From Nitzschia sp. pyKryTriq1 (Eukaryota > Bacillariophyta > Bacillariophyceae > Bacillariales > Bacillariaceae): a DNA stretch of 64,000 bases. The stretch spans positions 1,612,001-1,676,000 of the forward strand of contig OY101117.1 in NCBI GenBank assembly GCA_956465555.1. The letters are read 5' to 3'. The notes beneath the pieces were generated by a model. That model worked only from the letters and a program-made list of their open reading frames with translations. It did no database searches and was not told the origin of the DNA. The translations under genes were made by a program, and so were the position numbers. This document shows, one piece after another, positions 3,001 to 64,000 of this stretch. Position 1 is the stretch's first letter. Each line of letters begins with the position of its first letter.

Positions 3001-4351
3001 CCGTCGCCGCTTGCATCGCCGCTTCTTGGGCCGCCTTGGCATGTTCTAATTCCATGCGCATTTCTTCCACTTCCATTTGAGCCGTTTCGGTATCCAATTT
3101 CAATTCCTCGTATCTATCTTCCAATGATTCTTTTTCTTCTTGTAACTGTTCCTTGTCCAGAGTCAGTTCCTCCACAGTATTGTCTAACTCCTGCTTGTCC
3201 AACTCCAATTGTTCGACTCGTCGATTCAAACTGGCCACTTCCGCTTGCAGCCTTGCCCGCTCTTTGTAATGAGTCGCATCAGACGCTCCTCTTACTTCAC
3301 TCTGAGCTGCCAGGTTGGCTAATTCATTTTGCAATTGTTCGCATTCTGCCTTGGCCTTTGTCAATTCGACTTGATAGGTTTTGACTTGTTCTCGTTCCTG
3401 ATCCAATTGTTGTTGAACATCCTTTTGGGACGCCTTGAGATCTTGCGTGCGTTGCTCAAACTGCTCTTGCAATTCTTGAATTTTGACTTGCAACGAAGGC
3501 CCCTCTTCGACACTACTACTGCTACTTTTCGCCGGAGTCGCAGCAGCAGGCGCCGCCGTGGGGGCTGGTTCGAGCTGGGCCGCCAGAACCTTATCATGCA
3601 AATCGGCAATTTCCTTGGCTTGAGCGGAAGCCTCTTCCTTTGCTTTCGAGAGTTCTTCCTTCAAAGAAGCGACTTCCTTGTCTTTGGACTGGAGTTGACT
3701 TTTGAGTGTTTCGATTTCACTTTCCAGTTGCGACGTGGCAGCCGAAGTAGTAGTAGTAGTAGCAGCAGCAGCTGCAGCCGGTGTTTCGTCCATGGCTGTC
3801 AAAGAGCCCGTGGAAGACGTCGGAGTTCGTCCCGCCAACTGGGCCCGCCGTTGTCGGATTTCTTCCAGCCGCGTCGCCGTTGTGGTGGAAGCCGAGGGTG
3901 TGGAAGTCGCCGGTGTCCGGCTGGTGTTTGTGGCGGCGGTAGGAGGGCGCGAAGGAGTAGCGGTGGCGGTACTACCATCACCACTCGTTTCAGCGGCGTT
4001 GGTGGTACCGGTACCCCCACGGACACGTCCCGGCGTTCGAGCCACGGGAGTGTCTCCTCCACTGGTCGCCAGTTCTCGTTTCAATCGCAATTCTTCCAAT
4101 CTTGTGAGTTGCCTTTTCTTGACCAAGTTACTCTTGACAAAGAGACCACATTGAGGGGGCGACTCAAAGTATGATTCTCCTTGCACCGTGCCGTCATTTT
4201 TGCCAAGACCCACACTGGCACCCGTCAAGCGAACGCCTACCCAATCGTCGCCGTCGGCAAATTGAACGGAGCCTAGAAAAGCCACCACTCCTTCGAGTTG
4301 ACGGTTATCGCGGTTTACGTGGACGGGATCATTCATCGATAAGGACGACAT
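7..4351 (-). CDS. DCTN1: Dynactin subunit 1 (p150-Glued homologue)
   Basis: Three exons, 4351-2508, 2429-794 and 723-7, joined by GT-AG introns of 78 and 70 bp that keep frame; the product is about 1398 aa against about 1280 in human. The N-terminus is a CAP-Gly domain with the canonical GKNDG motif at residues 50-54, the part that binds microtubule and EB1 C-termini. A Ser/Thr/Pro/Ala-rich linker follows (about 85-205), then a long Glu/Gln/Leu-rich coiled coil (about 210-615), then a helical C-terminal half as in the dynactin p150 family. p150 is the microtubule-binding arm of dynactin, the dynein activator. The ATG at 4351 is right in front of the CAP-Gly fold. The family call rests on domain order. 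It is intact, and the stop lies at the window edge. The CDS carries one GTACCGGTAC at 4005-4014. Confidence 0.9.
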
Positions 4352-5400
4352 GGTATTGAAGTGGGTGCAGTACGGATACGGTACTGCACGAAGTAGCCTA
4401 TCTACTACAAACTATGCACAGCTGCCACGAGCACCTGGATCCCAATTTTCAATCCAACCAAAAGAACTGTACTTTTCACAGTCAGTCAGTTAATCCTAGA
4501 GACCGTAACAAACGTCTCGCAATAATAGAGAGGTCTGTAGTGGAAAAGCCACCAAGGAAATGAGATTGTAAAAGGCTACAAGTACCGGTAGGATGAATGA
4601 GGTGTAAATACATACCGATATATCTCTCCATCTGATGAGAGACGCGTACCACGCTGCGTAGTGCGTAACCCACGCACAACGCACAACACAATGGCGGTAG
4701 CCATGCCGGGGCTTTTGCGTTTCCGCGCATTGCCAGTGTTGTTCGTTAATTCGAAATTGTCGAGCGATTGTCCGCTTGTTCGATGGTTGTTCGACATCTC
4801 CTTCCAACTCGAACATCTAAAAATTATCGGACATTTCGGGCGGGAGCCCAACGGACCCATTTCACCTTTCATCTCTTGCTTTCATTCATGTGTATCACTT
4901 TCATTCCCGAATACGACTCAGTAGCCGAGCACAATAAATCTACGTACCGGTGCAATCAATGCCGAGCCTGCCTGGTCTCATTCCCGCCAGAAAAGTTTGC
5001 CCCACCCACGTGTTCACCACCTCTACCTATCAGGTACCGTGGTGTACCGGTACCACAATCGGATGGGGAGAGACCATCAACATTATGCTCTGCATGCTTC
5101 CGTTTTATCACACCAGCCGATCCAGAGCCGATCTCCAGACCTCGTTGCTCCATGTGATGGGCGACGAACGGATCACGTTGTCTTTGCTCGTCGGGTCTTG
5201 GCAAGAAGGCAAATACTAAGTCACACGATAACGTAACACAATAATCTGGTCTCTGGTCGTCTCGTCCCACGTCCCACGTCCCACGACGACTGTCTTCTCT
5301 GCTTCCACATCCATACGTTACCATTTCCTTCTTCTTCTGCTGCGTAGAGGCAAAATCCGTACAGTACGCATATTTCGAATACACAACAGCATTGAAAATA
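4352..5400. other. Divergent intergenic region, dynactin / epimerase
   Basis: About 1 kb between two genes that point away from each other. It holds GTAC-rich patches, including a perfect GTACCGGTAC at 5044-5053, and three tandem copies of CGTCCCA at 5263-5283. Small open frames here have no coding character. It presumably carries both promoters; no TATA box stands out. Confidence 0.55.
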
Positions 5401-10846: not shown

Positions 10847-11397
10847 AGTTCGTGGCTTGTATTATTACTGTACGAGCAGTGCTGCAAAGTTGAAAAGTGC
10901 AGCTACAAGCCTGTCCAAGGTAGTTGAAAGAAATTGAAATGCTCGTCAACAGTGTTTTCTCTGATAGCTTCTATTCCGAAGTCCAAGATGGTCGGTGGTG
11001 GGGAGAGGAGAGGAAGAAACTATGTACAGTAATAAAGTGAAGTCGACGTTCATCATCATGCGTGTTCTCGAAACGTGGTCGGTGCGGAGGACTGTGGCAC
11101 CAAAAAATGCGGTACCGGTACCTGGTACAGTACCGGTACCGTTACAGTGCAGTACCTGGTACTCTACCGGTACAAACTGTCGTAGTTTTCTACAGAGAAT
11201 GTCAGTCACGCACGCACTCATTTTTTATTTAATTTCGAGAAGAAATAATGACGTCATCCTTGCCGTACGAGTATCTTTGATCTTGGCTCGCTTCTCTGAT
11301 CTCTCGGCGGCATCACACTCAAAACCCTCGACCCTCCGCCTCGACGACCGACGACTTCGCACCTTCCACACAAAGTCACGAAGGATCACAAGGAACG
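10847..11397. other. Divergent promoter region, MATE / SDR, with GTAC tract and CRE
   Basis: The region between two divergent start codons. A GTAC-rich tract at about 11110-11175 contains GTACCGGTAC twice (11112-11121 and 11130-11139) plus several GGTACC and AGTACC units. A perfect CRE palindrome TGACGTCA lies at 11249-11256, 141 bp before the SDR start. Nothing here looks coding. Confidence 0.6.
11249..11256. promoter_or_regulatory. CRE palindrome upstream of the SDR gene
   Basis: TGACGTCA is the canonical bZIP/CRE site. In diatoms, TGACGT elements are known to mediate CO2/cAMP responses of carbonic anhydrase promoters. Function here is inferred from position only; an 8-mer is expected about once per 64 kb by chance. 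Confidence 0.35.
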
Positions 11398-12996: not shown

Positions 12997-13023
12997 CCAA
13001 GAACATTAAGACATCAAACAACG

Positions 13024-15298: not shown

Positions 15299-17570
15299 TC
15301 ATACACCCAGGATCATGTCGGCATTGTCATGCAAGAATGCCATGAGCTCAATCTCCCCTTCTGGGTAGCGACATCGCTCATCCGCGGCGGGCCCAACCAC
15401 GGTGGCTCCTAGCCACACACGAGCAAGCTCGCCAAGCTCAGGAAATTCCTTTTGGTTGGTGTTCCACCATGCAAGTGGGTCCTCAATGCGACTCCGCGAT
15501 TTCACAGTGGTGAAATAATGATCGACATTGGATCGGGCGTAGACAGCTGCAGCCTTGGTCTGGTCATCGGCTTTCCCCTGATCCCCACTATCGTCGCCCC
15601 AGAAAATTCCACCCATAGTGGATGACTCACCTGCTTTCTTGTTGGACTTGGGACCACTTTCTGAGGTGCTCGCCGCCGCTTGGGTCGTCACTTCGCCCTC
15701 TCGTGCGGCAAGCTTCTTTTCGCTCACCTTTTCGATCAATGATGCCGTTACTGCCTCCTTTTCCTTATCGGAAAGGCCACCCATGTGGATCAATCTGGGA
15801 TCGATGGGAATTGTCCACATATCAGGAGGATCTTTACCTAGGATAGAAGCGAAGGCACTTGAAAAGGCCTTAGAGAGCGTGCTACAAAAGCCCTTGGTAG
15901 ACGACACAGCAGGTGCCTCCTTGCTACCTTTGGTCAGCGCCTTGACATCCAACTTGGTCAAAACATCGTTTATCCTACGGGCAACTGGAATGGCTAATCC
16001 GACGGTAGAGTAGGCTTCTCCGGATAGTGTTTGGTGCGCATCATAAAATGGTTTGAGGAATGCTGTCAACACCGATATGATCAGCTTTTGACCCTTGTCA
16101 GGCTTCCAGTTGGCACTTGCCTCTGTGTTTTCCAAGGCCTGCAGTGCAGCGTAAGTACGACATACAAAACTGGTTGTTCCCATCTTCGATCCAGCAGCCT
16201 TTAACGCTTCTGCAACCACACTATCGACTAGACCTTCCGACGAACAAGCTTCCTGAACGATTGAGTCCATCTTGTAGAGAACACACGTGGACGAATCGTC
16301 AAGCCCAAGATCTATCGAGTCCGAGACTCCCGAGACAGTGACATGCGAAATTGCACTCAGTGACAAGGAATAGTCATTCAAGAGAGAAGTGACTGTCTCT
16401 TTGGTAGCCTTCCCCGACAGCACACCCAAGCAAACTGACTTGCGTTCGAAGGAGCTAGCACAGAAAATGACTGTCACAGATGTGTACCACTTGTCTTGGT
16501 TTTGGAATGTCTGGCACACCAAAGAATAGCTTTCTGCGTCCTTCAACACCCGACGGATTTCCAACTTAACTTTTTCCACATGATCCATGGCGATTTGAAT
16601 GATTCCCTCGGTTGTTGGCAGTTCGAAAGAATCGGAAAGACAACCGACAAAGTCTTTGATTCCCGAACTTTCGACAACGGACCATGGCTGAAAGCTGGAA
16701 ACTATCCACTTCAACAGCAGACCTTGGGCGGAGGACTGCTCAAACTCGTGTTTTCGCTTTTTGAGTGGGGGTGCATTTGTGGACCCCAAACTCGATCGCT
16801 TTCCTGTGCGAGTAGTAGTGGGGGTTTCCTTTTCGATCAATCCATGATAGGCCTGCATGTGACGACTGCAGCGTGATAAATATTGTTGTACCGGTACAAG
16901 TATGTATAAAACGGCGAGTGAGACACACTAGAGTTGTTGAAAGGGAAAGTCACATCATCATTGAAACCGTATCCTTTGCTCATACCTGATCGTCTTTGAA
17001 GTGCCCTTGGTGTAAGTGAATTGCTTACGACATTTGAGACAGTACGCCGAAACCGCATCTGTGCCGGCAAACAAGCATAGAGTGTGTTAGTACGGGTTTG
17101 ATACAGTACAGCATAAGTTCTCCAAGTAGCTTGTTCTCGTCTACTCGTACAGTACAGAGCGAACTATTCGTACCTTTGGTCCGCCACTTGATGAGACCTG
17201 GTGGAGGCTGATCGGCAGGGCCTGGTGCTACAAGCTTGATGTGCTCCCACAACTCTTTCTTCTGAACGCGATCGGGATCAAAGAGTCGCGACAGAATACT
17301 CTTGGAGGTCGACGGAATGAATGCCAATGCGGCATCCACGTTATTATCGTCGGTGCCCGCCGCCTTGATGTTCTTGGGGGCATTGCGAGCCGGGGGCTCT
17401 ACTGGATCATCGATCTTAGCATGCTCTTCGATGTTCCTCGCTGCCTCTTCGATTTCTCGCTTCTCTTCTTCTGTGTGAGCATCGGAAGCGGGCGCTTCTT
17501 CGCTGGCTTTCGGTACTCCCGTACCCGAGACTTTGGGCATCTCGTCGGCCTTTTCATCGTCCGCGCCCAT
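15299..17570 (-). CDS. BED zinc-finger protein derived from a hAT transposase
   Basis: Three exons, 17570-17174, 17058-16986 and 16865-15299, with GT-AG introns of 115 and 120 bp; 678 aa. An acidic N-terminus is followed by a BED-type zinc finger whose ligands are split over the three exons: C139, C142, H159 and H164 (CX2C-X16-HX4H), with the typical upstream Trp residues. A basic NLS-like KKRK lies soon after. The C-terminus from about 619 (DPLAWW...FPELGELARVWL) matches the hAT dimerisation domain. The RNase H-like middle is recognisable but eroded: where active hAT enzymes have a TTDNAxN-type motif with a catalytic Asp, this protein reads VTVSGVSDS. With introns, a full frame and a lost catalytic motif, a domesticated DNA-binding host protein is more likely than an active transposon. 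No terminal inverted repeats were seen. Confidence 0.75.
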
Positions 17571-18590
17571 TTTGAATGATGGAATATGATCAGATGGCTT
17601 GAATGGTGATGTGGATAAAGATACAGGTATTCGTCTTCTTCGTCTTCAATAGACCAGTGATGTCCTTTATTTGACGAGCACTGTGCTCTTGCCGCCCACG
17701 GTCATTGCGAACGATGCCTGACACCACGCCACACGGTGTTCTTCAAGTGCACAACAGACGTAGAATTTGGTACTTCTTCTACGTACCGGCAGTTTGGGAG
17801 AGTCATTTTTCACGGACGCACTCGGTCTCTACTCGTACCGTACCCGGTACCTGGTACCGTTACAGTACGTCGTACTCGTACATACTGTACGGTACGGTAC
17901 AGACTGTACCTGGTACAGTACCGATACAGTTGTTTACCTCCCCTACAGCAGCCAGTACGTGTACCAAGTCCTACACAAAATTTTAATACCAAAAATAAAA
18001 ACCCTCGAAAGCAACAGAAATTGAAACACGTAGAATCTGGTACATTTTTACTTCGATGTTGAGTTTCTCGTCCTGAAATAAGAAATAATGTAGTTTTCCA
18101 CCCACCTTTCGGTCAATCCGTTGAAATAGAGCGCGGGGGGCGCCGAGGGGTGCAAGTGGCAAAAGTGACCCGGAGGATTCCTACAGTCTGTCCGTCAATA
18201 CATGGTCCGCGGCCGACCATGGGCGGAGCTGCTCTACTGTACATGGTACATACCCCGACTCTTGTTTACCCCTGGAGTTCCGAACTACGGTGTGTACTCG
18301 GACGACGACGACTCGTATGCAGTAGTGTACAGTACGAGTTTCGACTGGTTTGACTCTTTTCGATTGATCAGTGAAAAAAACAATGGTGAATAATGACGAC
18401 GATGGTGATGTTGGGATGAAAGTCATCCCATGCCATAACGGTACCGGTAATAGTACATACAGTAATTGTTGCATTCCTCGTACTTTTCATCTCCGTTAAT
18501 ATCCGTACCAGTACTCGTACCCTTTCGCCTTTGAGAACAACCTTTCACTTTCGCACTCCACCTCTATCGACGTCTTTTTGATTGCTCGCC
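17571..18590. other. Divergent intergenic region with a large GTAC tract
   Basis: Lies between the BED/hAT-derived gene and an uncharacterised gene. A dense GTAC tract at about 17835-17960 (many GTAC, GGTACC and CGTACC units) and weaker ones at 18240-18330 and 18440-18515 dominate it. No credible gene. Confidence 0.55.
17835..17960. repeat. GTAC-rich palindromic tract
   Basis: More than ten GTAC tetramers in about 125 bp, arranged as overlapping short palindromes (GGTACC, GTACGGTAC, AGTACT-like). It starts about 265 bp upstream of the BED/hAT-derived gene. Confidence 0.7.
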
Positions 18591-22737: not shown

Positions 22738-23486
22738 TGTGTCATAAAGGAGTCGCCAAGCAAGTATCGTCCCACAATAATCTTCTACCCGAGGCAATCT
22801 GTTGTTGGTAGTTCGAGCACCAAAACACTAGGTTTGAGCTTGTCGACACGAGATTTGAAACGCAAGTATTTGTAGCTCGATCCGATGTGGGCAACAACAT
22901 CATGCGACATACCGATAGCACGGTCGGTCGGTGGTACATCATCGCATCTTCGCTCGCCCGATCCAAAGGGAGAGGAAGTAAGCGATCATGCAATCGCGGA
23001 TTAGCGAAAATCGAACGAGTCGTCGTCAGTCGATTGGGAGGAAATACATAAGCGCGCGTAGCAACTCCTCGGGTAGTTTAATTACTTATATATTCATGAA
23101 GGTCAATCAATGATTTGTGCTGGCGGGCTTGAACGCCTGCCGGTCTCATTCGTGCGTACAGTACGTATGAAGTACAGACAGTCACTGCGGTACCCCGTAC
23201 CGGTACAGGTACCGGTACAGTACTGGTTCTGTACGCTACAGTACTCGTCCAGTACCTGGTGCTTTTGGAGTAGTATGAATCTCTAATACAGATTATTCAG
23301 AGAGCTGTATCGTAAAGCAGCGAAAAGTGCACGCACTGTCTTATTTTAGCTACTGCCTTGACGCTCGAGAGCAATGCATCTCTCTTGCGCCGGAACGACG
23401 ATCGACACGCCAGGCAGCTCTACTAGTACTAGAGATAATTCAGGGTACATGTTTTAGAGACACATTAAGATATTCCCGTCATTTTT
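22738..23486. other. Intergenic region with GTAC tract
   Basis: A GTAC tract at about 23155-23265 holds GTACCGGTAC at 23197-23206 and 23209-23218, 420-530 bp upstream of the acidic protein's start. The remainder may include an unmodelled 5' exon of that gene. Confidence 0.5.
23197..23218. repeat. Paired GTACCGGTAC palindromes
   Basis: Two perfect 10-bp palindromes two bases apart, inside a roughly 110-bp GTAC-rich tract. Confidence 0.85.
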
Positions 23487-30085: not shown

Positions 30086-30939
30086 TGCGAGCAAACAATA
30101 ATATCACTTTTGCTTCAAATACAAACTGGCCCTCGGTATCGACCAAGATGTTTGATTGATCTCCTGCTTGTGCGTTTTGATTATTCTTTTGCTTTTGATG
30201 TCGATTGCGTGTTGCGTCGCAATCTTCCTCCCTTCTCTCCTTCAAGACGAGAGCCGAGACAACCACACTATGTACATACGACGACCTGACAACTGACCCA
30301 ACCAGGGGTACAATGTACTGTACTTGTACCCCTGGACCCAACCCCGACCGCCGACAGTGAGTATTCGCGTTTCCTCGACAATCCCTCCCCCAAAAGTCCT
30401 GGCAACCCCCGAATACTAGCTGTACGTGTATGTACATTGTACAGTACCGGTACATACTACCGGTATGGAAAACCTAGAGTAACACAGAAACCATTGAGAT
30501 AGTCAAAACACTCGGCCATCTACCTTTTAATAGATATAACTATGTCATCTCTTGCTAGGTCAACCAATCTCGGATATGATTTGGCTGTCCCTAGAAGAGA
30601 ACCTTCGACGGAGAACAGAAGACCCCTAGGAACCGACAACTTCCGATGCGATGACCAGGTTCCATTTTGTCCAGAATCCCCAAAAAGATCCAACCTCTCT
30701 CTTGTCCTGTTGCTTCATCATTACTACTAGTAGTAGTAGTAGAGTAGCTCCCTCTACTACTAGTAGAGAGTAGAGTAGAGAGCATCACCTCTACTCTACT
30801 AGTAGCGAGTCACTGATACTGTAGTACCGGTGCGGGGCTCTCTACTCTACTAGCTGATCGCCTCGCTAATACCTTCTCCTTGTATCATCCCTTCCCTTGC
30901 CGTTTTGCCGTGCCAAAATCCTTTTCATTGTTGTTATTG
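30086..30939. other. Intergenic region with GTAC tract and TAG palindromes
   Basis: A GTAC tract at about 30305-30470 includes GTACCGGTAC at 30444-30453 and lies 220-385 bp upstream of the HCF173-like start. Further on, 30721-30810 is made of CTACTAGTAG-type palindromes and TAG runs. No credible gene. Confidence 0.55.
30721..30810. repeat. TAG/CTA palindromic repeat cluster
   Basis: Contains TACTACTAGTAGTA (30722-30735), a CTACTAGTAG copy near 30757 and another near 30797, separated by GAGTAGAGTAG runs. It can fold into several hairpins. It lies 3' of the alcohol dehydrogenase gene. Confidence 0.7.
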
Positions 30940-34007: not shown

Positions 34008-34400
34008 GGTGATCCCGTTATAAGTTCGGACATTGGATTGAAGAACTACCCCTCCTGGATGATGATGATTCGCAGTGCTGGTACCTACCGGTACTGTACG
34101 AGTAGACTACTCCTAGGTGTGAATAAACAATGTGAAAAATGCCGACAGATCCTTTTCGATCGTCATCATCTTTGCTGATCGCAAGCGTTTTACTGTACGA
34201 CAATTCTCGCGCGGTTTTGTGTGCGTTTTGTTAGTGCGTATTTTCAAATTTTAGTATTATTACAGTAGTCTAGAGTGCGTCAAACTCACCCATCACATAA
34301 AACTGAACTTTAAAGCTATCGATCGACGACTTTCAACTCACTCCATAGTTGAGTACTGTACAAGAAGTACATACGTCTTTCTGATAACGCTGTCGCCCAT
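34008..34400. other. Divergent promoter region, kinase / sulfatase
   Basis: Less than 400 bp between start codons. GTAC-rich patches occur at about 34078-34110 (with TACCGGTAC) and 34360-34375, close to each start. Confidence 0.5.
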
Positions 34401-37295: not shown

Positions 37296-37368
37296 AGAGC
37301 TCACAATCTTTCCCCCCCCAATTTGAGTTTTTGTGGAACAAACACCCTTTTCGAATTCCTCCTTTTTA

Positions 37369-37949: not shown

Positions 37950-38110
37950 GTACAAGTACCAGGTGCGGTACCAGTACCTCGACCTGTACGCGACGAGTAC
38001 CAGTACTGGGACCGGTACCAGGTACCGGTAGACGACGACTCCTCGTACGCCCGGTACACCAGGTACGGTACCGGTACTGTATGTACGAACAGTACAAGTT
38101 ACAAGTACCT
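37950..38110. repeat. GTAC-rich palindromic tract upstream of POLD3
   Basis: About 160 bp packed with GTAC, GGTACC and AGTACC units, with one perfect GTACCGGTAC at 38069-38078. It ends about 170 bp before the POLD3 start codon. Confidence 0.75.
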
Positions 38111-38281
38111 GGTTGCGTGCGCTTCAGCCGCTGCGCCGGCGTTTTGTCTCCAGTGTACTTGTTTCTGTCATTGTTGTTGTCATCGTTGGATGTTGCCTCC
38201 AACAACGGCATAGTATCATTTCCTTTCATTGCTCTTCTCTTTGACAACCTTCATCGGAGTCCGAGTGCGAATACGAGTAGT

Positions 38282-39820
38282 ATGGCTAGTAAACTTAGCA
38301 CCGCTGAATGGCAGAGCGCCAAGCAAAAAGTGGCGTCGTGGATCGACAACGAAGAACGCTGTGTGACGGCGCAGCGGGTCTGCCAGACTTTGAATGTGTC
38401 GAGATTGGAGGCCTCGCAGCTCTTGGAGGAAATAATCTGCGATCAAGCAAAAGGGAGAGGCGAAAGTGAAACCAAGTTTCAAATCACCACATGTCAAAGA
38501 GAAGACAAGGAGGAAGAGAACGTCCCCGTCACTGGTACGTGCTGCGCCTTTCGCACCTGTAACCTGTAACACCAGACCAGTTTTGTAGCAGCAAGTCGAT
38601 GGATTCGCAACACAAAGCCTTCTCTCACACTTTCTGTCTGTTTGCGCCCTACGTACTATCCACCATCTACTGCAGTCTTTCGATTACGCCAATCGACGAC
38701 GATTATTCCACAGGATTCCGATGCCAGCCACAACAACAACAACAACAACAACAGCTGTAACATTGTCGCCATAGCTTCGCTGCAAGCGACCGAATCCGTC
38801 GCCACGGCTCATGAACGCGACCTGATGGAGTGGCGTGAAATGGTGGCAGATGGGCGTTACCAACAGCAAACCAAGGACGATGGGGCCATTCAACCCGCCG
38901 ATGTCATTGCGCCGCTCAAAGATGCCGCTCCACCATCGTCGTCGTCGTCGCCATCGAGCAGCACCAAGATGACGGTCGAAGACGATCCTTCCAGCAGCGC
39001 TACCTCGAATCTCAGCTCCAATCGTCACAAAGCTTTTTCGGGCAAGGCCAAGAAGGTGACAACAGCGGCCTCCTTTTTTGGAAGCAAGTCAAAGAATGGA
39101 AACAGCAGCAGCAGCACACCTGCGAAAAGCGCAATCACCGTCGCTAGCAACAACAACAACATTAGTAGTAACAGCAGCCAGAGAGCGCCGCAGCCCACTG
39201 AAGCAAAGGAAAACGACAAGGTGCAAACCAACCAGGTCGCCCCTACCGGTACGGGTACCGGTACCGGTACTGCCAAGGCTTCTGCTACTAGCAGCCGCAG
39301 CAGCAACAACAAACCGAAATCCTTTGGAAATGCCGATGACTTTGTGGCAGACGAAGAAGAGAGTGACGATGAAGACAAGGAACTCCATGAACGCAAACAA
39401 AAACAAGTTGCCCGTCGGAAAGCTGTGCAGGAGGCGAACAAACAATCCGAGGAGACGACTCCAGTCGATGAGGGCGACGACGATGTCGATGATGACAAGG
39501 GCAAAGTGGTGGGTGCCATGGATGCCTTTGCGACTACGGCGCCCAAAAAAGTGGCCGTGGAAATGAACAATAATATTAATAATAATAATAACGGTACTCG
39601 GCAACGAAAGCGTAGAAAGAAGCTGGTGGAGGAGACGGTCATGGTCAATGGCTATCTGCGAACGGAAACCAAGGCCATCTGGGAAGATGTACCGACTGAT
39701 GAAGAAGAGGAAGAAAAGGAGCAAGAAAGGCAGCGAGTCACCAAAAAGCCGTTCAAGCCGAGCAAACCACAACAGGGTATGAAGCAAAAGAGTTTAATGG
39801 GGTTCTTTGCCAAGAAGTAA
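38282..39820 (+). CDS. POLD3: DNA polymerase delta subunit 3 (p66/Cdc27)
   Basis: Two exons, 38282-38534 and 38676-39820, around a 141-bp GT-AG intron (phase 1); 465 aa, the same length as the human protein. The N-terminal winged-helix region (WIDNEERCVTAQRVCQTLNVSRLEASQLLEE) binds the catalytic subunits. The middle is disordered, with Asn, Ser, Thr and charged runs. The C-terminus ends in a PCNA-binding PIP box, QKSLMGFF at 455-462. POLD3 links DNA polymerase delta (and translesion polymerase zeta) to PCNA. The disordered middle contains a Gly-Thr repeat encoded by overlapping GTACCGGTAC palindromes at 39255-39270. The ATG at 38282 opens the conserved winged helix; the frame upstream translates the GTAC tract and was rejected. 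Confidence 0.92.
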
Positions 39821-40162: not shown

Positions 40163-41840
40163 TCAAAAAGCTGCTCGATTCCGAATATTATTTGTTTCCG
40201 TACGTAAAGACTTGCGCTTGAACAAGCCAAGCACACCCCCACCGAACGACTTCTTCAACTGCGCGACGTCAATCCATGGCGCTAATTTCTGGGTCAAAGG
40301 ATTGTAATGAAGAGTCTTTTGGTTTTTGAGAAGATCACCCAAGAACTTCAAAAAGCCATTCCAGTCTGTATGGACATCCGGGCAATTTTCGAAATATTCG
40401 GCTCCTAGAAGAACAGAGCAGAATTCCTTAACTTCGTCCTTGTTCAACGGCCTTTCGTCCAGCAAATCGAAGATCCGATGTTGATAGCCAATTTCCCGAC
40501 CTTTCGATTACAGGAAGAGAGATTTCAATGTGAGAACGACATGACGGCTAACGTCTCATCGAAATAAAGAAGGTGTTGGTGAGAGTACTTTACTTACATC
40601 GATGGAGCGGCAGTGCGTAGTTGAGCCAGCTATTGAATTGATGGCATTCTTTCGCTTCGTTCAAGTGGTCATCAAGCACCTCAAGTGGAAGCTCTAGAAC
40701 ACTGTCAAGAGCATTATAGAAATCGACAACAGGTTGCTCATCAGTGCATAGGCGGATCACTACCCAGACTGAGCAATTGCCGGGATGGGTATTGTGGTAC
40801 GAACAAGTATGGTGAGGGACCTTGTGGGGCATCAAGTCAAAAACAATCCTGTTTGAAAAAACCTTGACATACCTGGTAGGTTTTGAAGGCGTGATAGCGC
40901 ATGGATGAATTCGTTGTTGATTCGGTCACTAGTTTCACCTTCCGGGGACGTTGGCAAGCCGTCTGTAGCGATAATGACGACAGCCTGGAGTCCTCTCTGG
41001 CGCATAGCGCCAGCCATTTCAGAGATACGCGCCGTAATTTCTATCAAATGAGCTGTCAGCGGAGTCGCTCCATTTGGTTTCGTATGTTGCATAATTGCCT
41101 TGGCCATCTGAATCTCCTCTCTGGCAGATCTAGCTTGGTCAGCGATACTGAACTCCTGGGGCCCTACCCGGACTCCAGGATCGTTGAGCATGCGGAAATG
41201 AGTGGTGGCCTGCAATACTGCGGCAAGCTCGGCATGATACATTACGGTTTCCTGCAGCTCACTCCATCGCGTACAAGGAACCATAGAGCCGCCGCGTATT
41301 GTGTGACCATCATTGTTTAGCATACTGCCTGAATTATCTATTATCCAAAACCTTGTTGGAAAAAGAGAGCGAGTACTTCCAAGCTGCGTGGCCAAGCCAT
41401 TAGGATACCCCATCTCTAGAGTATTGTATAGTCACGGAGCCAAAGTAAGCGCACAAGATATGTCAGATCAATTTTTCGATGATTGATCAGAGACTTCAGT
41501 CGAACCTACTCTTACCTCGTAGATCTGTGAGCTGTTCCTCGACCAAAAAGGAGGATTTTGTTCTCACTAGACTGGCGGTGGGACGTGACGTTTGCTCAAA
41601 ATCGGCATAACTAGTCACTCCAACGCTGTATGCTAGGCTATCTGGACGCTGTAATTGGGGTGGGATATCGGCACGATTTACATTACCAATACCCGTTGCC
41701 GTCGACTGGCCCAGTAGGGAGATCCTCGAACTTCGGCCGTCATACCCATACCCATTTTCGTCTAAATGTATCTCGGCCTCTACCATTGTCGGAATGGGTG
41801 GATACCCGTCATTCTGTGCCATATTGTTTTGCCGATACAT
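40163..41840 (-). CDS. von Willebrand factor A domain protein
   Basis: Four exons, 41840-41516, 41415-40873, 40768-40598 and 40500-40163, with introns of 100, 104 and 97 bp, all GT-AG and in consistent phase 1; 458 aa. After a disordered N-terminus (about 1-108) comes a vWA domain with the MIDAS triad D135-x-S137-x-S139, a Thr in NGATPLT and the Asp of ATDGLP, so metal binding should be intact. The junction LP|VWVVIRLCTD restores a beta strand and supports the third exon. A C-terminal helical region (about 280-458: NYALPLHRC...DLLDERPL...NPLTQKLAPWIDV) looks like a conserved partner domain of unknown role. Intracellular vWA proteins act as metal-dependent scaffolds; the partner is unknown. 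No signal peptide. Confidence 0.82.
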
Positions 41841-42722
41841 GATGGTGAGAGTGCCTTTGTTTGGAGAGGAAGTTTACTGGTAATGAATTAGAGGACGGAA
41901 GCTTCGTCACTTCTTATCATTGTGGACTAGTAGTGTCTAATTTGTATGATTCTCGTTTTTGTTTTTCGTTTGTGTTTTGGTGTTTCGTGTTTGGGTTCTG
42001 CCGTTGTGAACTATGTACAGTACTGTAACAACGCGCCACCGCACCACGTGAGGAGTGAGTGAGTCGTCCAGAGAGGAGTCGTCGTCCAGTGCGAGCCTCG
42101 TAGAGTACTGGTACTACACGTACATTATGTACTACCAGTACAGTATTCGTACTGTACAGGTACTGGTAGTGTACTCTGCACGAATACTGTACCGGTAGAC
42201 TGGTGTACGCTCTGTACCAGGTACAACATACATACCGGTACGTACCGGCACCACCTGCCGGCGGTGTTGGTTACGTTTGCGTTCCGTTTGCGTGAAGAGC
42301 GAAATCCAATTAGTCAAATGTGCGGAAATTTTTGCGCGCTGGCCGGTACACGTACTGTACTGGTACCTGGTACAGTACCGGCTTCAGTTAGACTACCCCA
42401 GTCGTAGTAGCTGCTGCTGCGCGCTTTGAAGCGAGACAGAAAGTGACAGAATGATTATAATATGCCCTTCGCAACAGAAGGCTGGCGCGCACGAACGAAC
42501 GAAGAAGATTGCCATCATCAAACTTGAAAACTACGACGAGCGAAATAAAGCTAAAAAAAACGAGGCAAGAACAGAACACCGATCTTTCCGATGGACGGAA
42601 GATCGAATGCCATCACTTCATTCTTCATTCCCATTCGTTAGAGTAAGAGGGTTTCGATAAAGAAGAGACTTCTTACATTTCCAGAGTCTTCAAGGATCAA
42701 CAAGTTACCGAGTACTCCTACA
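41841..42722. other. Divergent intergenic region with GTAC tract and inverted repeats
   Basis: The GTAC tract spans about 42010-42385. Within it TACAGTATTCGT (42139-42150) and its exact reverse complement (42180-42191) can pair. The rest is T-rich near the vWA start and purine-rich near the plastid-protein start. No gene seen. Confidence 0.55.
42010..42385. repeat. Large GTAC-rich tract
   Basis: The longest GTAC tract of the window, nearly 380 bp with interruptions; it mixes GTACTGGTAC, TACCGGTA and CAGTAC units and lies midway between two divergent starts. Confidence 0.7.
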
Positions 42723-43410
42723 ATGGCATTCACAGGAAATTTTTCATCTGCTCTCATCGCCCTGGTGTCGGCCATGATGCTTACCTCGTCCACTGCGTTT
42801 CTGATTCGATCACCTGCTCCTATTGCTACACGATTGTACCTCGAAGATTGGGTTGCCGATCTAATCGATAAAGAGCTGTACAGGCAGGGCCACATGAAGG
42901 AGTTTGAGGCCGAGTGGATGGAAAAGAATCGAGCCGCCGTCTTCCACAAGATCGAGACCGATTTTGGTCCTATCAGCGATCCTGATGAAACCGATTTCCG
43001 GATGTATGCCAAGGACAAGAAGATGGCTGAAAATGATCCGCAAAGGTATTGCGCCGACAGATGCGTCGCGACTGGGAACTGTGACATCTTTGAAGACTTG
43101 TGAGTGCCCAAAGTGTTTCCAGAGTACTACTATGATGTCGGTGTGGCAAGTGGTGACAAGGCGATGTCGAGCCACGAATCATCATTTGCTCGAGGCACGA
43201 CCTGATAGCCTCAGCTTGATGATTCTCCTTCCTTGTGTTGTGGAATCGTTGGACATAACTTTTCAATGTCTCACTTGTCCTTCTCTTCTCCATCGCAGTT
43301 ATGAACTGGGTCCTGAGGAAGTGATCAAGTTCTGCACTGAGTGCGTTCTCAGCGAGGAAGAAGGAGAATGCGATCTCCCGCCGGGTTTTTACGACAAACC
43401 TCGGCCATAG
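42723..43410 (+). CDS. Small Cys-rich protein with diatom plastid presequence
   Basis: Two exons, 42723-43099 and 43299-43410, around a 199-bp GT-AG intron (phase 2), the longest intron here; 162 aa. A signal peptide (about 1-25) ends TSSTA with Phe next (FLIRSPAP), a textbook ASAFAP-type plastid import motif. The mature part is charged and helical, and its C-terminal third has paired Cys (CADRCVATGNC; CTECVLSEEEGEC) suited to disulfides or redox switching. The Cys pattern is loosely like CP12, but the CP12 core motif is absent, so I do not call it that. Plastid stroma or thylakoid is likely; the function is unknown. Confidence 0.78.
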
Positions 43411-43846
43411 ACGAGTTTCGGCGTGGGCATAGGATACAATACTTTATTGTCTTACTACTGAGCAATGGAGCACTTAATACAAACAATCCATATTGAACAA
43501 CGTTGAAAACATCGAATGGAGGAGATGACTAGTAGGATGCAAACACGGACCGCCATAATCAGACCATAATGCAGTAAATGTAGAGGCCGGATTACGGAAG
43601 ACGAAACGGCGGGAATCATTGTTTCTCTCAAATCGATGGACACTTTAGAGATATGCGTGCTACTTTCAATGATACTACTGTACTCAAATGCGTCCATAGA
43701 GAAGGCTATTGTTACATTAATTCTAATTCCATCGCTCGCTTTTCCCATGTCCGGGAAGGTGTGTTTCATTCATGTTACTCGTAAGACGTGGCGCTCTTAG
43801 TTTTCATCCATGGTCCTACTCGTACAAAGGAACGAGCCTATCAATT
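43411..43846. other. Convergent intergenic region, nothing recognised
   Basis: 3' sides of the plastid-protein gene and the four-helix membrane protein. No repeat or credible frame. Confidence 0.45.
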
Positions 43847-45072
43847 TTAGTCAATGCCTCGGAAACTGCTATTGTTCTCCTCGCCCAAAAATCTCAACTC
43901 CTCTTCCGAGAGATTGCCTTGGCTTTTGCTCAAGTCTTCCGATGATTGGTGGAACGCGTTAGAGTCGTCCGCGCTTGAAAAATGGGAGGAATCGTCCTTG
44001 GTACTTTCAAAGTGTGAGTTGGCGTCAAAGTCATCGTCGCGCCCTTGTTTGTATCGGCGGCTGTCTTCTATCGGTTCAGGTTCTTGATAATCCGTCTGGT
44101 AAGGATCGTGCTCGTAATCTTGATCCTGCCCTTCTCCGTCAATGTAGCCTTCGGGATTTTGATCGTCATAATAATCTTCACCCTCACCCTCTTGGTCATC
44201 ATAGTACTCTTGGTTGGGATCATCATAGTATTCGTCATCATAATCATCATAGTATTCACCATCGTTTTCGAAGTCACCCTCTTCTCCATCGTACTCATCG
44301 TCCCATCCTCCAGCGGCGTACGGGTCCCTGTTCTCGTCGTGCAGGGGGGGCTTTCGTCCACGTCCACGAGGTGGCAAAGCCTCTGGAAAAGACTTGATCA
44401 TATTGGCTGCCCACACCCACAACATCGCTGCGGTGATGTTCATGCCCGTTCCACTCGACCAAGTGCACTCGTACTCATCACAAAGGTCACTTCCCCATGC
44501 CAAGAAAGTAAGCGCCTGCGCAACGAAGCAAAACATGCAGGTCCAGAAGAGACCCTCAAAGGTTGGCAGCTGGAAGGCCACACAACAAGTGCACATAATA
44601 ATGAGCATTACAATTCCGCCAATCCCACACGCCATCAAACTCATGGCTTTTCCAGCCCGCCACATGCTATCAAAATACAGATCTTTTTCGTCTCGGTCAT
44701 AGAAGACGCACTGTCTGTAGTTCGGAGGCTCCAAGACTCCCACTTGGCGCGAAATATAACCGAAACCTTCGCGAGGTAATTCCGGTTCACCCTCTTCTGG
44801 GATAGGGCGAACATACATGTAAAAGCAACTGGTGATGGCCATTAACGAACAGATCCACGAGGAAATAGTAAAACACTGCGCCAGGACGGTAAAGCAACGC
44901 CCATGGGGACACGAGCTAAAATAGAAGGGAAAAGAATAGCGTTAAGACGTAAGACAAGGGTAGTTCGAAAAAACTACGAAACGAGGTGCGGATCTTGGTT
45001 CTCGAGAACGGGCCGATGAGATATTACGCGACGGGTGACGCACCATGGTCCATAAACATCGTAGATACACAT
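43847..45072 (-). CDS. Four-helix membrane protein with Asp/Tyr-rich tail
   Basis: Two exons, 45072-45044 (only nine codons plus two bases) and 44915-43847, around a 128-bp GT-AG intron; 365 aa. The tiny first exon (MCIYDVYGP) is inferred: it is the only in-frame ATG that joins in phase to the helix starting SCPHGRCFTVLAQC. Helices at about 18-45, 100-124, 131-151 and 165-183 are rich in Cys and Met, with a hydrophilic loop between the first two. Residues 184-365 form a soluble tail with many YYDD and similar Asp/Glu/Tyr units, then Ser-rich sequence. I recognise no family; the topology is tetraspan/MARVEL-like only in outline. The tail could bind cations, which is inference. Confidence 0.68.
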
Positions 45073-46104
45073 CTTCCTTCTCTGCTGAGCAAGATAGGGT
45101 AGCTCGTCCAAAGGGGGGGGGTGCCTTGAAAGATGGCAGCAGGGTCTTTCTCTCGAGGCGAAAGAAGCTTATCAATGATACGATGGTGATAGCAGCCGGG
45201 GGAACAAGCTTTCGAGTTTCCAGCATGATCGTCTTGCTTGGTAGACTACACGGTGGTGGGAGCTGGGAAGAATTTAGCGCAGGCAGGCTACGTACTGAGT
45301 GCGCCTCAAACCATGTTCAAACTCGTAGAAAATAGTACCAGAGATGCGTACATTCTCAGTGCCGTTTTACTGCACTGTACGAGTACAGTACATAGAGTGT
45401 TTCAGAAAGGGCGTACCTCCGTCCGGTCACCAAGATCAAAAGGGTCATCGCATAAATACTCGTACTACTCGCTTCGCCCTCGCCCAGTCTGTCCGGTATC
45501 CCAAGCCCTGGAGTGGTCAATTGAGTCATCGAGTCATCGACATCGCATGCAATTTCATAATGCACCATGCCTCGTGAGGCTCCACAGAGTGAGTAGTGGT
45601 ACCTGGAACTCGTTGAGAAAGCAGTAGTTTCTCTCTCTAGAGTTAGACTAATCCTTGGTAGTAGTTAGTAGTGTACTCCTCTACTCTAGATCATAAGCCT
45701 GTTGTTGTTGTTCTTGTTCTTGTTTAAACACTGGTATCTTGATATCTCGACTACTACAATGGAGAGAGACTTAACAAAACGATTTACGAGTACGAGACTC
45801 GCTAGCATACGCCGTAGAGATGCTGGGATGGATGGACCGTGAATAGTAGGAGTGGTTTGCTTTGAAATCACACATATTATTGAAGACCTGTGGTCAAATA
45901 AAGCTTCAAAGGGCTCGATTGGAATACGATTGTTGTTCTGGTTCATCCGCAATCAAATTCTTCACAACCGTGTTGGTTTTCTGGCGGCGCCTGGGCCTAT
46001 TCATAATATAGCACTCCATAGAATAGCAAGAAAGATAAAATTAAAGCATTATCAACTCAAGAACTTCTCCATTGCCACAGCATACACTGCACAAGCCCCT
46101 TGGT
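45073..46104. other. Intergenic region upstream of the four-helix protein
   Basis: Contains a run of nine G at 45113-45121, scattered GTAC units (45370-45400 and 45590-45610) and CTCTAG patches near 45635-45690. Also the 3' side of NHP2. No gene seen. Confidence 0.45.
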
Positions 46105-46560
46105 CTATCGGGCTACACCCGTCGGATCGTACTCCTTGGCTTCTTTACTCAACGCATCGTATAAATCCTTTCCTTCAAAATCCTTCTTCGGCGTTCGTAC
46201 CAGAACAACACTTGTTGGTCGCTTGGTGCTGGCTGCTGCTCCAAGATCTTGCTTGGAAGGAACGAACAGGTAGGGAATGTCCTTTTCCTCCAACAACACT
46301 GGGATGTGCGATATAACGTCCAGCGGATAGATATCTCCCGCCAAAATTGCCAGACCAGTTTCACCTTTGCGAATTCCCTTAATCACCTCTTTGACTCCTC
46401 TTCGGATCTGTTTTTGACCTGCTGCTTTTTTTACCAACTTGTGCGCTTTCTTCGTAGATTTCTTGGATGCCAATGGATGGCTGATAACGTTCACGGCCTT
46501 GACGCGCTCTTCGTAGGTCTTGGAGCTTCCTTTCGATGCCTTATCTTCAGTATCGGACAT
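46105..46560 (-). CDS. NHP2: H/ACA ribonucleoprotein subunit NHP2
   Basis: A single exon of 151 aa, the usual length. It is an L7Ae/L30e-type kink-turn RNA binder: RRGVKEVIKGIRKGETG followed by LAILAGDIYPLDVISHIPVLLEE and a VP/LVR C-terminal part match eukaryotic NHP2 rather than Snu13 or ribosomal L7a. NHP2 is one of four core proteins of H/ACA snoRNPs (pseudouridylation of rRNA and snRNA) in the nucleolus, and of telomerase in animals. It is divergent from the DUF1415 gene. Confidence 0.93.
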   Translation of the reverse strand: MSDTEDKASKGSSKTYEERVKAVNVISHPLASKKSTKKAHKLVKKAAGQKQIRRGVKEVIKGIRKGETGLAILAGDIYPLDVISHIPVLLEEKDIPYLFVPSKQDLGAAASTKRPTSVVLVRTPKKDFEGKDLYDALSKEAKEYDPTGVAR

Positions 46561-49144: not shown

Positions 49145-50323
49145 CGTGTTTCTTGTGTTGGAACGAGGCGTGATATCTCTTCCGATGGCCTCAGGTTCAG
49201 TTTTGTGGTGTGTTCTTTCTCCCTTTTGTCTTCTTGTTCGGGAACGACTGATGGCCGTAGACTGCTCTACTTCGCGCTCGGTCGTTGGTTTGTACAGTAC
49301 GATGTGCCAATGTTCTTTGATGGGTGATGGGACCAATTATGGTTCGTTGTTCGTTGGCTGATGATGGATCCCGCCACAAATTCTGTGACTATCTTGCTCC
49401 TGTTTTGTTGTGTCTGTCGGCACCTGCAACGGCCAGATGTTATGTTGGCGATCGCTGATTGGCTGTTGAAGAGGCTGGAATGCGTCACTCGGTGCCAAAC
49501 TTCATTCATTCAACTGGAACTGGACGCGCGCGCTTGCTCGCATGCGATGAGTTTCATGCTTTTCTTCTCCCCCCATCATCATGCATGCATGACGACGAAT
49601 TTAGCGATCTTTTTCGATCGACGCACGGACCATGGATCTTTGTTACTTGTTACGTACCGGAAAGTACTACCTGGTACTGTACCGGTAAAGTGCAGGTAGT
49701 ACCTGGTACCTGGTACCTGGTACGGTACTCGTACCTTGCTCGTACAGTACTGGTACGCTGGAGACCCTTAACAGATGTACATCTAACTGTATCCAACTGC
49801 TTTTTCCGAGTCTGCCATCCTGAGGAATGGCGGAAATCACCGCGGACGGCTTCACCGCGGTGATTTCCGCGATTCCGCTAGCGCTCCGCAGTTTGCCAAA
49901 TTCGCGTCTGTCGTCTTCCGTGCAAAAAGGTCTATCGCACCCACCATGTTGTTCGCAACTGCTGTCGCACCTCCGGATTTGTATGAATACCTTCTGAGTG
50001 CATTGAAAGCTGCCGTACCTGTAATGCAGTTCGTACTGGTACTGGTACCAGTCCCTCGACAGTACAACAGCTACGTGGTACACATCCGCTGCACCACACC
50101 CTGCTCCGTCGCTCTCTACAGTAGCGGTACCGGTAGTAGAGGCGTTTGCCACAATCATCATCATCGTCACATCATCGGCTTTCTCATCAGAGTACTAATA
50201 CCGGTACCGGAATACAAAGTAGACTGCGCTATTCATTCAACATTCGTCAGCTCGTCATTCAAGCATCCTGTCAATGTTTCTAATTCAGTCGAATGCACCA
50301 CTCGGTGAAATTCGAAGGAGAAA
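49145..50323. other. Divergent intergenic region with GTAC tracts and a strong hairpin
   Basis: GTAC tracts at about 49655-49765 (including three GGTACCT units in tandem), 50030-50065, 50130-50140 and 50195-50210 flank an inverted repeat at 49824-49876. No credible gene. Confidence 0.55.
49824..49876. repeat. Perfect 16-bp inverted repeat (hairpin)
   Basis: Arms GCGGAAATCACCGCGG (49830-49845) and its exact reverse complement (49855-49870) around a 9-base loop. Pairing extends by about five more bases on each side (GGAAT with ATTCC) after one mismatch. It is not followed by a T run. It lies between the two divergent starts and could be a structured RNA, a small MITE remnant or a cruciform. 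Confidence 0.85.
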
Positions 50324-51387: not shown

Positions 51388-52310
51388 GTTGCAACCAAGG
51401 TATGCTTTCCCATGGTTGGCCCAACACGATCTGCTACTAGTAGAGAACACCTCCCCCCGCCCAATCATTATTTCCCGGGTGTTCCTGATTAGCGTACCAG
51501 GAACGGACGATTGATGATGATGAAGATGATTGGATTGATGATGATGATTTTTTGTCTTCATTCTGGCCATCCTTCTTTTACATGTTCGTACTGTACACGT
51601 ACGAGTCAGTACCTGGTAGACCAAGAGGTCGAAAAAGTCGCAGACAAAAGTCAAGAATGAAGTACCATACAAGAAGTACCAGGTAGAGTACCGGTACCTG
51701 GTACTGTACTACCGAGTGTCTTGTTATTGTGATTGTAAGACCTGTCTCAAAAATCGCTGTTGTTATGTAGAACAACTGTTTCAAGAATTCGCGTTCCTAC
51801 CAAGGCAACGAGAGATTCTACGTATACTGGAAATGGAAGGATTTGATTCGACTGTGGCACGCGCATCAATGGCAGGGTTCTTCAAACGTGAAGCTTGGAG
51901 GTGAACCAACGGACAAGCATACAGCACAGCAAGTAGTACACTCATACTTTCAAGAAAAAATGCTCAGGACTCCTCATCAAGACGACGGTTCTTTTCACTT
52001 TTCTCAGCTTTCATAAAATATCTTCTGACAACGGCACTCGACTTTCAAGGAAAAAGAAAAGGGTAAGCCTCCCTCGCTCTCGACATCATCGTTTGATCAG
52101 CCTACCTCCCCAGACTAGATTATTCATTCGGGCGCTCAGATCGCAAGATATGCCGTTTTGCGGGTCTTTAGCTGCTCGTCGTCCTCATTTTTGTTGACGC
52201 TGGTCGAAACATTCGGCTCCTTCTGGATAGGAAGTCTGACGTTTGCTTTGCTTGATTCTCATATTTTTCACTGTCTCCGTACCGGTACCTGAACTTGCAG
52301 AAGAAGAATC
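51371..52310. other. Intergenic region upstream of the SLC6 gene
   Basis: Starts in the ACAATG repeat. A GTAC tract at about 51585-51715 holds GTACCGGTAC at 51688-51697, and another copy at 52279-52288 lies 23 bp before the SLC6 start, probably in its 5' leader. A 60-codon frame at about 51720-51904 has no supporting features. Confidence 0.55.
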
Positions 52311-63100: not shown

Positions 63101-63713
63101 TCTAACATGAATTTTGGGTCGGGCGTAAGACATGGACCGTTTTGAAATATGTGGAGAGTGTGCAATCTTCATGCTCTTGGATGGAAACATGTCGCCGGGA
63201 ATATTTCCCGCGTCCATCGAGGCCGTGCGTTTCCGAGACCCGGGAGGTATTTGATGCCCCCGACTGGCGCCTTCCGTGGATTCCATCTCGCCCACCGTCG
63301 AGGACAAGCATGATACTAGCGCATGGACTAGCTCCTGATTATGGACGACGGCAGAAATCGCGGGAATAGAATTTGGCTGGGGGAAAGGGATAGACGGCTT
63401 TCCATCGTGTTTCTTGCTGTTGGGTAGTATGGATTTTGGATAAATTCGAAAATGCGAGCAAAAAAGTGAGATCCTCGAAGCGAAATTATTGACCGAAGAG
63501 ATAATTTCCTTATTCCAAGAAGTAATTTCATAGTCCAGCGACTCACCGAATGTGCTGTATCGTCGTGCGGTCAAGTTTCAGATGGTACAGCAAACCAAGA
63601 CCACAAACATAGATTTCACCAAGAATTTTGGGTGACTGGGCCTGTGAGAGGTTATGCAGACGCAACAAGGCCTGGCAACAATGATCCAAATCGGGAGGCC
63701 GTCGCTTCACCAT
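57111..63713 (-). CDS. INTS1: Integrator complex subunit 1
   Basis: Three exons, 63713-63547, 63416-59303 and 59222-57111, with GT-AG introns of 130 and 80 bp; 2130 aa against 2190 in human. Exon 1 (MVKRRPPDLDHCCQALLRL) was found by following the frame back through a GTGAGT donor; phases match at both joins. Landmarks are the RLLAATILFVAFEHLDHWPAAFVKAYSED helix early on (in segments), a Ser/Asp/Glu-rich insertion, the DUF3677-like VRRIITANLEKWLQSPALA, and the WWRATGLALVVCGASERISSIAWNEHPTVKALI region, which aligns by eye with human INTS1. INTS1 is the scaffold of Integrator, which cleaves snRNA and other nascent Pol II transcripts in the nucleus. Confidence 0.93.
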
Positions 63714-64000
63714 GGTCGACACAGAGAGTCGAAAGACTGCGAATCAATCGCGGTATCAATTTCACCTACTGTACCGGTACCTGCACCACCGGTAGTAGGT
63801 CATCGTCGAAGTACCAGGTACAGAATGTACGGTACTGTGCGCCGGTACGTGAACAGGTACATTGCAGTACTTGTACTGTACCGGTATAAATAAGGCGGCG
63901 CGATCGATGAGCATCTTTCTTACAGTATCTATGTATCCCATGCCGCCAGTTAGTAGCGAGCAATCATCTTGCGATTTTTTTTCGCGCTGAAATTGAATGA
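63714..64000. other. INTS1 upstream region with GTAC tract
   Basis: A tract at 63771-63895 starts with GTACCGGTAC (63771-63780) and ends GTACCGGTATAAATA, where TATAAATA could be a TATA-like element on the plus strand. It lies 58-180 bp upstream of the INTS1 start. Confidence 0.55.

Follow-up and report, generated by a model that had tools for sequence, protein, structure and literature searches.

Tracts rich in GTAC are scattered over a 64,000-nucleotide stretch of the genome of the diatom Nitzschia sp. pyKryTriq1 (C3:1612001-1676000 of a 40.65-Mb, 20-contig genome; hereafter, the window), where they include repeated copies of the 10-bp palindrome GTACCGGTAC. We propose, with a probability of about 0.8, that these tracts are made of small insertions targeted to TA dinucleotides. 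The basis for this proposal is the spectrum of short cores found between TAs, the independence of neighbouring units, the decay of unit arms, a reading-frame effect in coding sequences, and one 6-bp gain in a copy of a repeat. In each event, an existing TA would become TA-core-TA, where the core has 3-5 nt with C first and G last, and 5, 6 or 7 bp would be gained. The new TAs could be hit again, so that tracts would grow and strings of the GTAC..GTAC type, including GTACCGGTAC, would be a by-product. As the process behind the insertions we lean slightly towards excision of transposons of the Tc1/mariner/pogo type, stacked at the same sites.

The palindrome in the window and in the genome

The sequence-only reading, made earlier from the letters of the window, had listed 14 exact copies of GTACCGGTAC with many near-variants and a chance figure of about 0.06 in 64 kb. 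All 14 copies were recovered, with a start of 38068 rather than 38069 for one of them, and the chance figure agrees with the expectation from base composition (0.057); none of 100 dinucleotide-preserving shuffles reached 14 copies (mean 0.00). The near-variants are reflected in the distances between GTACs. Distances of 5, 6 and 7 bp are strongly enriched, with 31, 38 and 19 pairs, respectively, versus approximately two expected, and distances of 4 and 8 bp, with one pair each, are not enriched. At 4-39 bp the window contains 428 GTAC pairs versus 77 expected, a ratio that is not even approached by any of the 15 other palindromic 4-mers. On re-examination, the bases next to the palindrome differ between copies, as had been noted. 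The genome-wide count proposed as a check gave 4,817 copies of GTACCGGTAC and 132 of the reversed word, rather than a number close to expectation. The 16-mer GTACCGGTACCGGTAC has 272 copies in the genome versus one for its reversed control. In 2.9 million viral contigs this 16-mer was found in 43 stretches, and a longer tract pattern was found in none.

Units bounded by TA

The spectrum of units was determined in a 314-kb sample made up of the window and five 50-kb stretches, four from contig C1 and one from contig C5. The sample is not random, and the window is its unit-richest part (7.81 units per noncoding kb versus 4.05-6.55 elsewhere). Coding sequences (189,585 bp) were predicted by a dicodon-scoring script trained on long open reading frames (ORFs), and these gene models are without transcript evidence. 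The noncoding set used for the spectrum covers 123,050 bp, with putative introns counted as part of the genes. For the expected numbers, units were masked from the background and each core was pooled with its reverse complement.

The tracts parse as TA-core-TA-core-TA, with cores of 3-5 nt that begin with C and end with G. Between TAs, such C..G cores exceed expectation approximately 8- to 160-fold in noncoding DNA. The most frequent core is CAG/CTG (187 observed versus 10.2 expected), which is equally common in both orientations (CAG 95, CTG 93), followed by CCGG (111 versus 0.7), CGAG/CTCG (59 versus 3.1), CCG/CGG (57 versus 7.5), CAAG/CTTG (46 versus 3.6), CCAG/CTGG (45 versus 2.2), CCAGG/CCTGG (43 versus 0.4), CAGG/CCTG (29 versus 1.9) and CTAG (18 versus 1.1). 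Some of the CCAG/CTGG cores may be CCGG changed at its CpG. Cores of 3 and 4 nt dominate; the 2-nt core CG exceeds expectation only modestly (53 versus 21). The excess over the nine cores is approximately 564 units in the sample, or about 4.6 per noncoding kb, from which about 60,000-70,000 units are extrapolated for the whole genome; the 43 copies of GTACCGGTAC in the sample over-predict the genome count of this word by approximately 15%.

Isolated units are flanked about equally by G and C (the base before TA is G in 0.37 and C in 0.34 of the pooled units), and the combination of G and C flanks is found in 56 of 340 cases, both strands counted. The boundary of the unit is therefore TA and not GTAC. 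GTACCGGTAC is mostly TA-CCGG-TA located beside other units or between G and C. In view of these flanks, we rejected the palindrome as an element in its own right, and a nuclease or factor that requires GTAC itself is also disfavoured.

Growth of the tracts

The 551 noncoding chains of units (cores of 2-6 nt) comprise 406 single units, 85 doubles and 60 longer chains with a maximum of seven units. Adjacent units are alike in 26 of 244 pairs with strands pooled (27.6 expected) and strictly identical in 19 (17.3 expected). In 203 pairs in which both cores are 3-5 nt long, the lengths of adjacent cores are not quite independent (chi-square p 0.04), and neighbours of equal length are rarer than expected for core lengths 3 and 4. 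The independent identity of neighbouring units fits separate, repeated events at TA sites and argues against replication slippage or microsatellite growth of TAC-containing units. Slippage would explain the head-to-tail arrangement, and some tracts do repeat a core (CCTGG three times at 49700), but adjacent units are no more similar than expected and those with cores of 3 and 4 nt are less often of equal length. This mechanism is already contradicted by the data, and we rejected it as highly improbable. A fixed 3-bp CWG duplication split by TA was also rejected, because it would force neighbouring cores to match. The sequence-only reading was right that the tracts are locally grown, as the neighbour independence indicates, but the growing unit is TA with a C..G core of 3-5 nt and not GTAC or GGTACC. 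Its statement that the tracts are not dispersed copies of one element is supported by the same independence and by the flanks of isolated units.

Signatures of the proposed insertions

A TA with a 4-nt core adds 6 bp and keeps the reading frame, whereas units with cores of 3 or 5 nt break it; an enrichment in coding sequences that depends on the frame is hence a sign of insertion. Cores of 4 nt occur 55 times in predicted coding sequences versus 16.8 expected from a pooled synonymous shuffle, 18.0 from shuffling within genes and 28.9 from shuffling within 40-codon blocks, the highest of 60 block shuffles being 39. Cores of 3 nt show no excess (15 versus 23.3, 22.4 and 18.4 in the same three controls), and cores of 5 nt are not enriched (1 versus 0.6, 0.5 and 0.3). 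Six other C..G 4-mers were found 8 times (versus 7.8, 8.0 and 9.7). In the share test, p was 6e-9 and 0.0014; with clumps collapsed, it was 3e-7 and 0.008. As is characteristic of footprints, the frame-keeping cores are enriched in coding sequences and the frame-shifting ones are not. Misassigned noncoding DNA would also have brought in 3-nt units, and these show no excess.

An empty site was found once in homologous sequence. In a three-copy repeat on contig C1 (L006:7947-8140, L007:799-999 and L007:5456-5699), one copy reads TGTA-CCGGTA-AGTC and the most distant copy reads TGTA-AGTC, so that 6 bp are gained at a TA. The arrangement typical of a footprint, a short core between two TAs, is seen both in the spectrum and in this gain.

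The arms of the units are decayed. One-base variants of the arms of TACCGGTA were found 71 times versus 15.6 expected, with similar numbers over the three positions of the TA-C arm; with units masked, they include 37 transitions (5.6 expected) and 34 transversions (10.0 expected). For TACAGTA, 336 variants were counted over the arm positions versus 209 expected with units masked; this count omits C>G changes, since TAGAGTA is itself enriched. A near-absence of decayed TACAGTA arms, which held only with an unmasked background, was rejected in view of this excess. Decay that is even over the arm positions is as for scars that erode without protection.

Genomic distribution and alternative explanations

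At least one unit chain is present in 101 of 126 intergenic intervals of 150 bp or longer (40 of 44 divergent, 36 of 45 tandem and 25 of 37 convergent), with 3.74, 3.76 and 2.60 chains per kb, respectively. The density of GTAC pairs is 39-fold higher in noncoding than in coding DNA, and it amounts to 2.77 per kb in divergent, 2.31 in tandem and 1.09 in convergent intergenic regions. The pairs are scarce within the first 150 bp on either side of ORFs, peak at 300-400 bp upstream (4.37 per kb) and then remain at approximately 3 per kb to 1,500 bp. The 11 putative introns, a small sample of 1,365 bp, contain 5 units. Such a distribution is in keeping with insertion into DNA that is untranscribed or under weak constraint, chromatin that is open or on the promoter side being somewhat preferred.

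The main rival to insertion holds that the tracts are homotypic clusters of transcription factor sites, read as TAC(N1-3)GTA half-sites and selected in promoters. The density of GTAC pairs in noncoding DNA, their preference for divergent and tandem over convergent regions and their upstream peak speak for such clusters, as does the resemblance to promoter motifs of another stramenopile, Phytophthora infestans. In the available part of the published motif analysis, TACCGGTA and TACATGTA are the high-confidence, stage-associated promoter motifs M94 and M93, and TACATGTA has 4,150 promoter occurrences (PMC3597505). On the other hand, the density of GTAC pairs upstream of the peak still amounts to about 3 per kb as far as 1,500 bp, and convergent regions, when all unit chains are counted, are still well populated. 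The arms decay at all positions, and neither a coding enrichment confined to the 6-bp class nor a clean 6-bp TA-duplicating gain is predicted by binding sites. The CATG cores of the TACATGTA type are rare in the sample (4). We consider this explanation unlikely. The regulatory code suggested in the sequence-only reading is disfavoured in the same way by the widespread chains, the even arm decay, the units in putative introns and the coding enrichment at the frame-keeping length alone. Among the three options offered there, a mutational bias comes closest, as the tracts resemble the record of a biased insertion process.

SBP-domain factors of green algae bind GTAC copper-response sites, and a link to them had also been raised. 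The GTAC core is common to both systems, but isolated units have no regular GTAC flank. The SBP-domain profile had no match in the genome, and the control genomes were equally without a match, hence absence of the factor is not proven; the link is not supported.

The 8-mer of Phytophthora M94 is identical to the most frequent 4-nt unit in Nitzschia (PMC3597505). Compared with the motifs as described in the part of that report available, TACCGGTA belongs here to a whole family of units that bear signs of insertion, and TACATGTA occurs rarely. Both Phytophthora words have the form TAC-NN-GTA (PMC3597505), and they could be candidate insertion scars themselves.

Another alternative is TA-directed break and repair without a transposon, in which a nuclease or damage opens a TA, bases starting with C are added, and the ends are joined with duplication of the TA. 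It would explain the C..G form, the TA duplication and the neighbour independence, as well as the lack of a source element. However, tails added independently predict 4-nt core counts that factorise; instead, there is an excess of CGAG/CTCG (59) and CAAG/CTTG (46), and hardly any CCCG/CGGG (5). Simple addition of bases would not yield so narrow a set of cores, and this origin appears improbable to us.

Transposon excision as a possible origin

Cut-and-paste elements with TA as their target characteristically leave a duplicated TA together with a short core. On insertion, such a transposon would duplicate the TA, and on excision it would leave a few of its terminal bases. Overhangs starting with C and ending with G could pair at both ends on joining and would give C..G cores. 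With complete pairing of the overhangs the cores would be palindromes such as CCGG, and cores of odd length would keep A or T at the unpaired centre. Low-copy elements active over a long time could leave many scars and few elements.

The units resemble the footprints of Tc1, mariner and pogo elements in the TA duplication, the short core and, for CAG/CTG, the equal frequency of a core and its reverse complement. According to the part of the Sleeping Beauty report available, TACAGTA and TACTGTA, that is, three end bases with the duplicated TA, are the consensus footprints of this transposon (PMC4378557), and they correspond to the commonest core found here, CAG/CTG. In contrast to transposon footprints, the units number tens of thousands by extrapolation, are stacked and differ in their cores, the longest of which have 5 nt, and the searches described below revealed no element that matches them; the footprints in the available parts of the literature are single events at known elements, unlike the tracts in Nitzschia. 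The internal eliminated sequences of Paramecium, as far as the available part of their description goes, resemble the units in their TA boundaries and large numbers per genome. In Paramecium, germline segments between TAs are precisely removed, whereas here short insertions remain and programmed removal is not seen. Among the open-licence literature matches listed, there was no report of tracts of this kind in a diatom. We infer that the system works like a TA-transposon footprint and is a candidate for this class, with odds a little better than even for an origin by excision.

Several observations weigh against insertion at TA or against its origin by excision. In noncoding DNA, spacers other than C..G are also raised, namely CTC/GAG (54 versus 11.8), GAC/GTC (43 versus 9.8), CTAC/GTAG (57 versus 2.1) and TAA/TTA (31 versus 6.7), and isolated CCGG units have G (0.45) more often than C (0.32) before TA. 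The excess of CTAC/GTAG is partly a TAC microsatellite. The TA-bounded spacers CTC/GAG, GAC/GTC, TAA/TTA and CTCC/GGAG are 4- to 8-fold over expectation and perhaps come from other element families. In coding sequences, the control based on blocks is weaker than that based on whole genes. When CTAG and CGAG are removed, since both may originate in AGT runs, 35 coding 4-nt cores remain versus 13.8 expected within genes or 21.2 within blocks (highest 30). The microsatellite-like spacer is raised in coding sequences as well (CTAC 25 versus 8.1, GTAG 11 versus 1.7), and many coding units are located in Thr/Ser/Gly low-complexity stretches, to which local codon habit and microsatellites may contribute; such stretches are also places where insertions are tolerated. 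Direct evidence of insertion is one event, which is one of three distinct indels of 4-9 bp in the C1 repeat family and one of 23 gap lines (4-10 bp, repeats counted) in all paralogue alignments, most of these lines coming from a tandem array and silicon-transporter copies. The third copy of the C1 repeat is also without CCGG, yet three other bases differ there, and no indel of 4-9 bp is present in a second noncoding repeat that has diverged (C1b, 85-89% identical). The counts of chains are over-dispersed (2.65 in divergent, 1.61 in tandem and 1.45 in convergent regions). The 5-nt core CCAGG/CCTGG exceeds the footprint lengths given in the available parts of two reports, 0-3 bp for ZB, generally 2-4 bp for Tc1/mariner and 0-4 bp for the pogo-type Passer (PMC7913693, PMC9976928), and several distinct cores would need several element families.

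The search for a source element adds to these points. No intact TA-bounded inverted-repeat element of up to 3 kb was found in the 314 kb; the strict scan, blind like the looser one to elements longer than 3 kb, returned the tracts themselves and an inverted duplication of silicon transporters. With looser settings (up to 1.2 kb), 3 matches were obtained for TA, a number similar to those for the controls AT (8), GC (5) and CG (2). Miniature inverted-repeat elements were rejected as the source, since none were found in the 314 kb. Tc1-like genes are few in the genome, with 2 matches to DDE_3 and 11 matches, complete or partial, to the intact protein of a low-copy Tc1-like element, L032:105-2760. 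This element has an intact 502-aa DDE_3 frame, with DD34E spacing judged by eye, and long inverted repeats that start near TACATTTTGCGGAACA; its end word has 9 exact copies in the genome. A related end word, TACATTTTGCTAAACA, is present as an inverted pair approximately 1.5 kb apart on contig C13.

CATG is the core of Tc1 footprints. The resident Tc1-like ends around TACATTTTGCGG (TA-CATTTTGCGG; exact boundary uncertain) predict CAT/ATG or CATG cores, of which CATG was found 4 times and CAT/ATG 22 times versus 9.0 expected in noncoding DNA. An end placed five bases further out (CGCTACATT) predicts CGC/GCG, which is outside the 16 most enriched 3-nt spacers. In this one Tc1-like family with visible ends, the terminal bases do not correspond to the common cores, and the resident family was rejected as the source because the cores that it predicts are rare or only mildly raised.

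The mariner Transposase_1 profile had no match in the genome, and the controls also had none. The only gene matched by DDE_1 (L034:394-2982) is an 862-aa pogo-type frame with CENP-B_N-like and other helix-turn-helix domains. No terminal inverted repeat was found in 3.7 kb around it, where there are short scattered matches only, and this pogo/CENP-B-like gene is possibly domesticated. The source element may have died out, may be very scarce or may belong to a different kind of element. We further speculate, as a rather doubtful extension, that ongoing and possibly host-run TA-directed insertion is a leading source of small insertions in this diatom. TA sites would be opened by an element that is unseen or almost erases itself, or by a transposase that has been domesticated, as may be the case for L034, and by extrapolation about 60,000 scars would be left in the genome.

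Other repeats were noted in the course of these searches. Copia copies gave at least 30 matches. Silicon transporters, which mark the genome as that of a diatom, gave eight matches in it, seven of which cover nearly the whole profile; they were noted in L005-L006 (C1:307304-317295), L025 and L026, and several on C1 are nearly identical duplicates (up to 99% identity), arranged in tandem or inverted. In C1c 34504-46462 (L018-L019), a noncoding repeat of approximately 180-730 bp has several copies of at least about 99% identity within 12 kb, in both orientations.

If excision is the correct explanation, the genome is a readable record of transposon visits, with several scars per noncoding kb, in a species in which the searches turned up few DNA transposons of the class concerned. 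Transposon activity in diatoms would then be measurable without a surviving element. Over-represented promoter palindromes of stramenopiles, usually read as factor-binding motifs, could be insertion scars, and the process would be a source of small in-frame protein insertions. Under host-run insertion, the C..G scars would seed GTAC-rich intergenic DNA and add two-residue Thr-Gly or Thr-Ser steps to proteins.

Tracts in the window

Three of the 14 palindromes, at 4005, 39255 and 39261, are within predicted coding sequences. The first corresponds to TA-CCGG-TA at 4006..4013 in a Gly/Thr-rich low-complexity stretch of a CAP-Gly ORF (2504-4351, minus strand). The other two belong to the tract CCGG-CGGG-CCGG-CCGG at 39244..39269, located in a Thr-Gly repeat of ORF 38573-39820. 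Its four consecutive 6-bp units all have 4-nt cores and keep the frame, and the Thr-Gly low-complexity sequence of this ORF was perhaps built by insertion.

Single TA-CCGG-TA units are found at 5045..5052, in a divergent intergenic region, and at 52280..52287. The divergent intergenic tract CCGG-CCTGG-CAG-CCGG at 11113..11138 includes two of the palindromes and is followed by extra units, some of them altered, to about 11172. The palindrome at 16888 belongs to CCGG-CAAG (16889..16902), approximately 30 bp upstream of the ATG of ORF 15299-16858 (minus strand) and within a merged gene call of uncertain structure. This ORF (519 aa) has a weak match below the cut-off to the hAT dimerisation domain (E 0.0008).

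Three tracts lie close together: CTCG-CCG-CCCGG-CCTGG (17830..17856), CAG-CGTCG-CTCG (17861-17880) and CTG-CGG-CGG (17883-17899). Two palindromes are included in CCCCG-CCGG-CAGG-CCGG-CAG at 23191..23222. The tract CAATG-CTG-CTTG (30309..30328) precedes CATTG-CAG-CCGG (30433..30452), which carries the palindrome at 30444. Further along are CCGG-CTG-CGAG in a divergent intergenic region (34086..34104), CGG-CCGG-CTG with the palindrome at 38068 (38064..38081), CTG-CAGG-CTGG (42150..42168) and CACG-CTG-CTGG-CCTGG-CAG (42347..42377). The 5-nt core CCTGG begins both CCTGG-CTG-CCGG (49668-49687) and CCTGG-CCTGG-CCTGG-CGG-CTCG (49700-49733). The palindrome at 51688 is part of CCGG-CCTGG-CTG (51689..51708), and that at 63771 is part of CTG-CCGG (63767..63779), beyond which CTTG-CTG-CCGG is located at 63868..63886.

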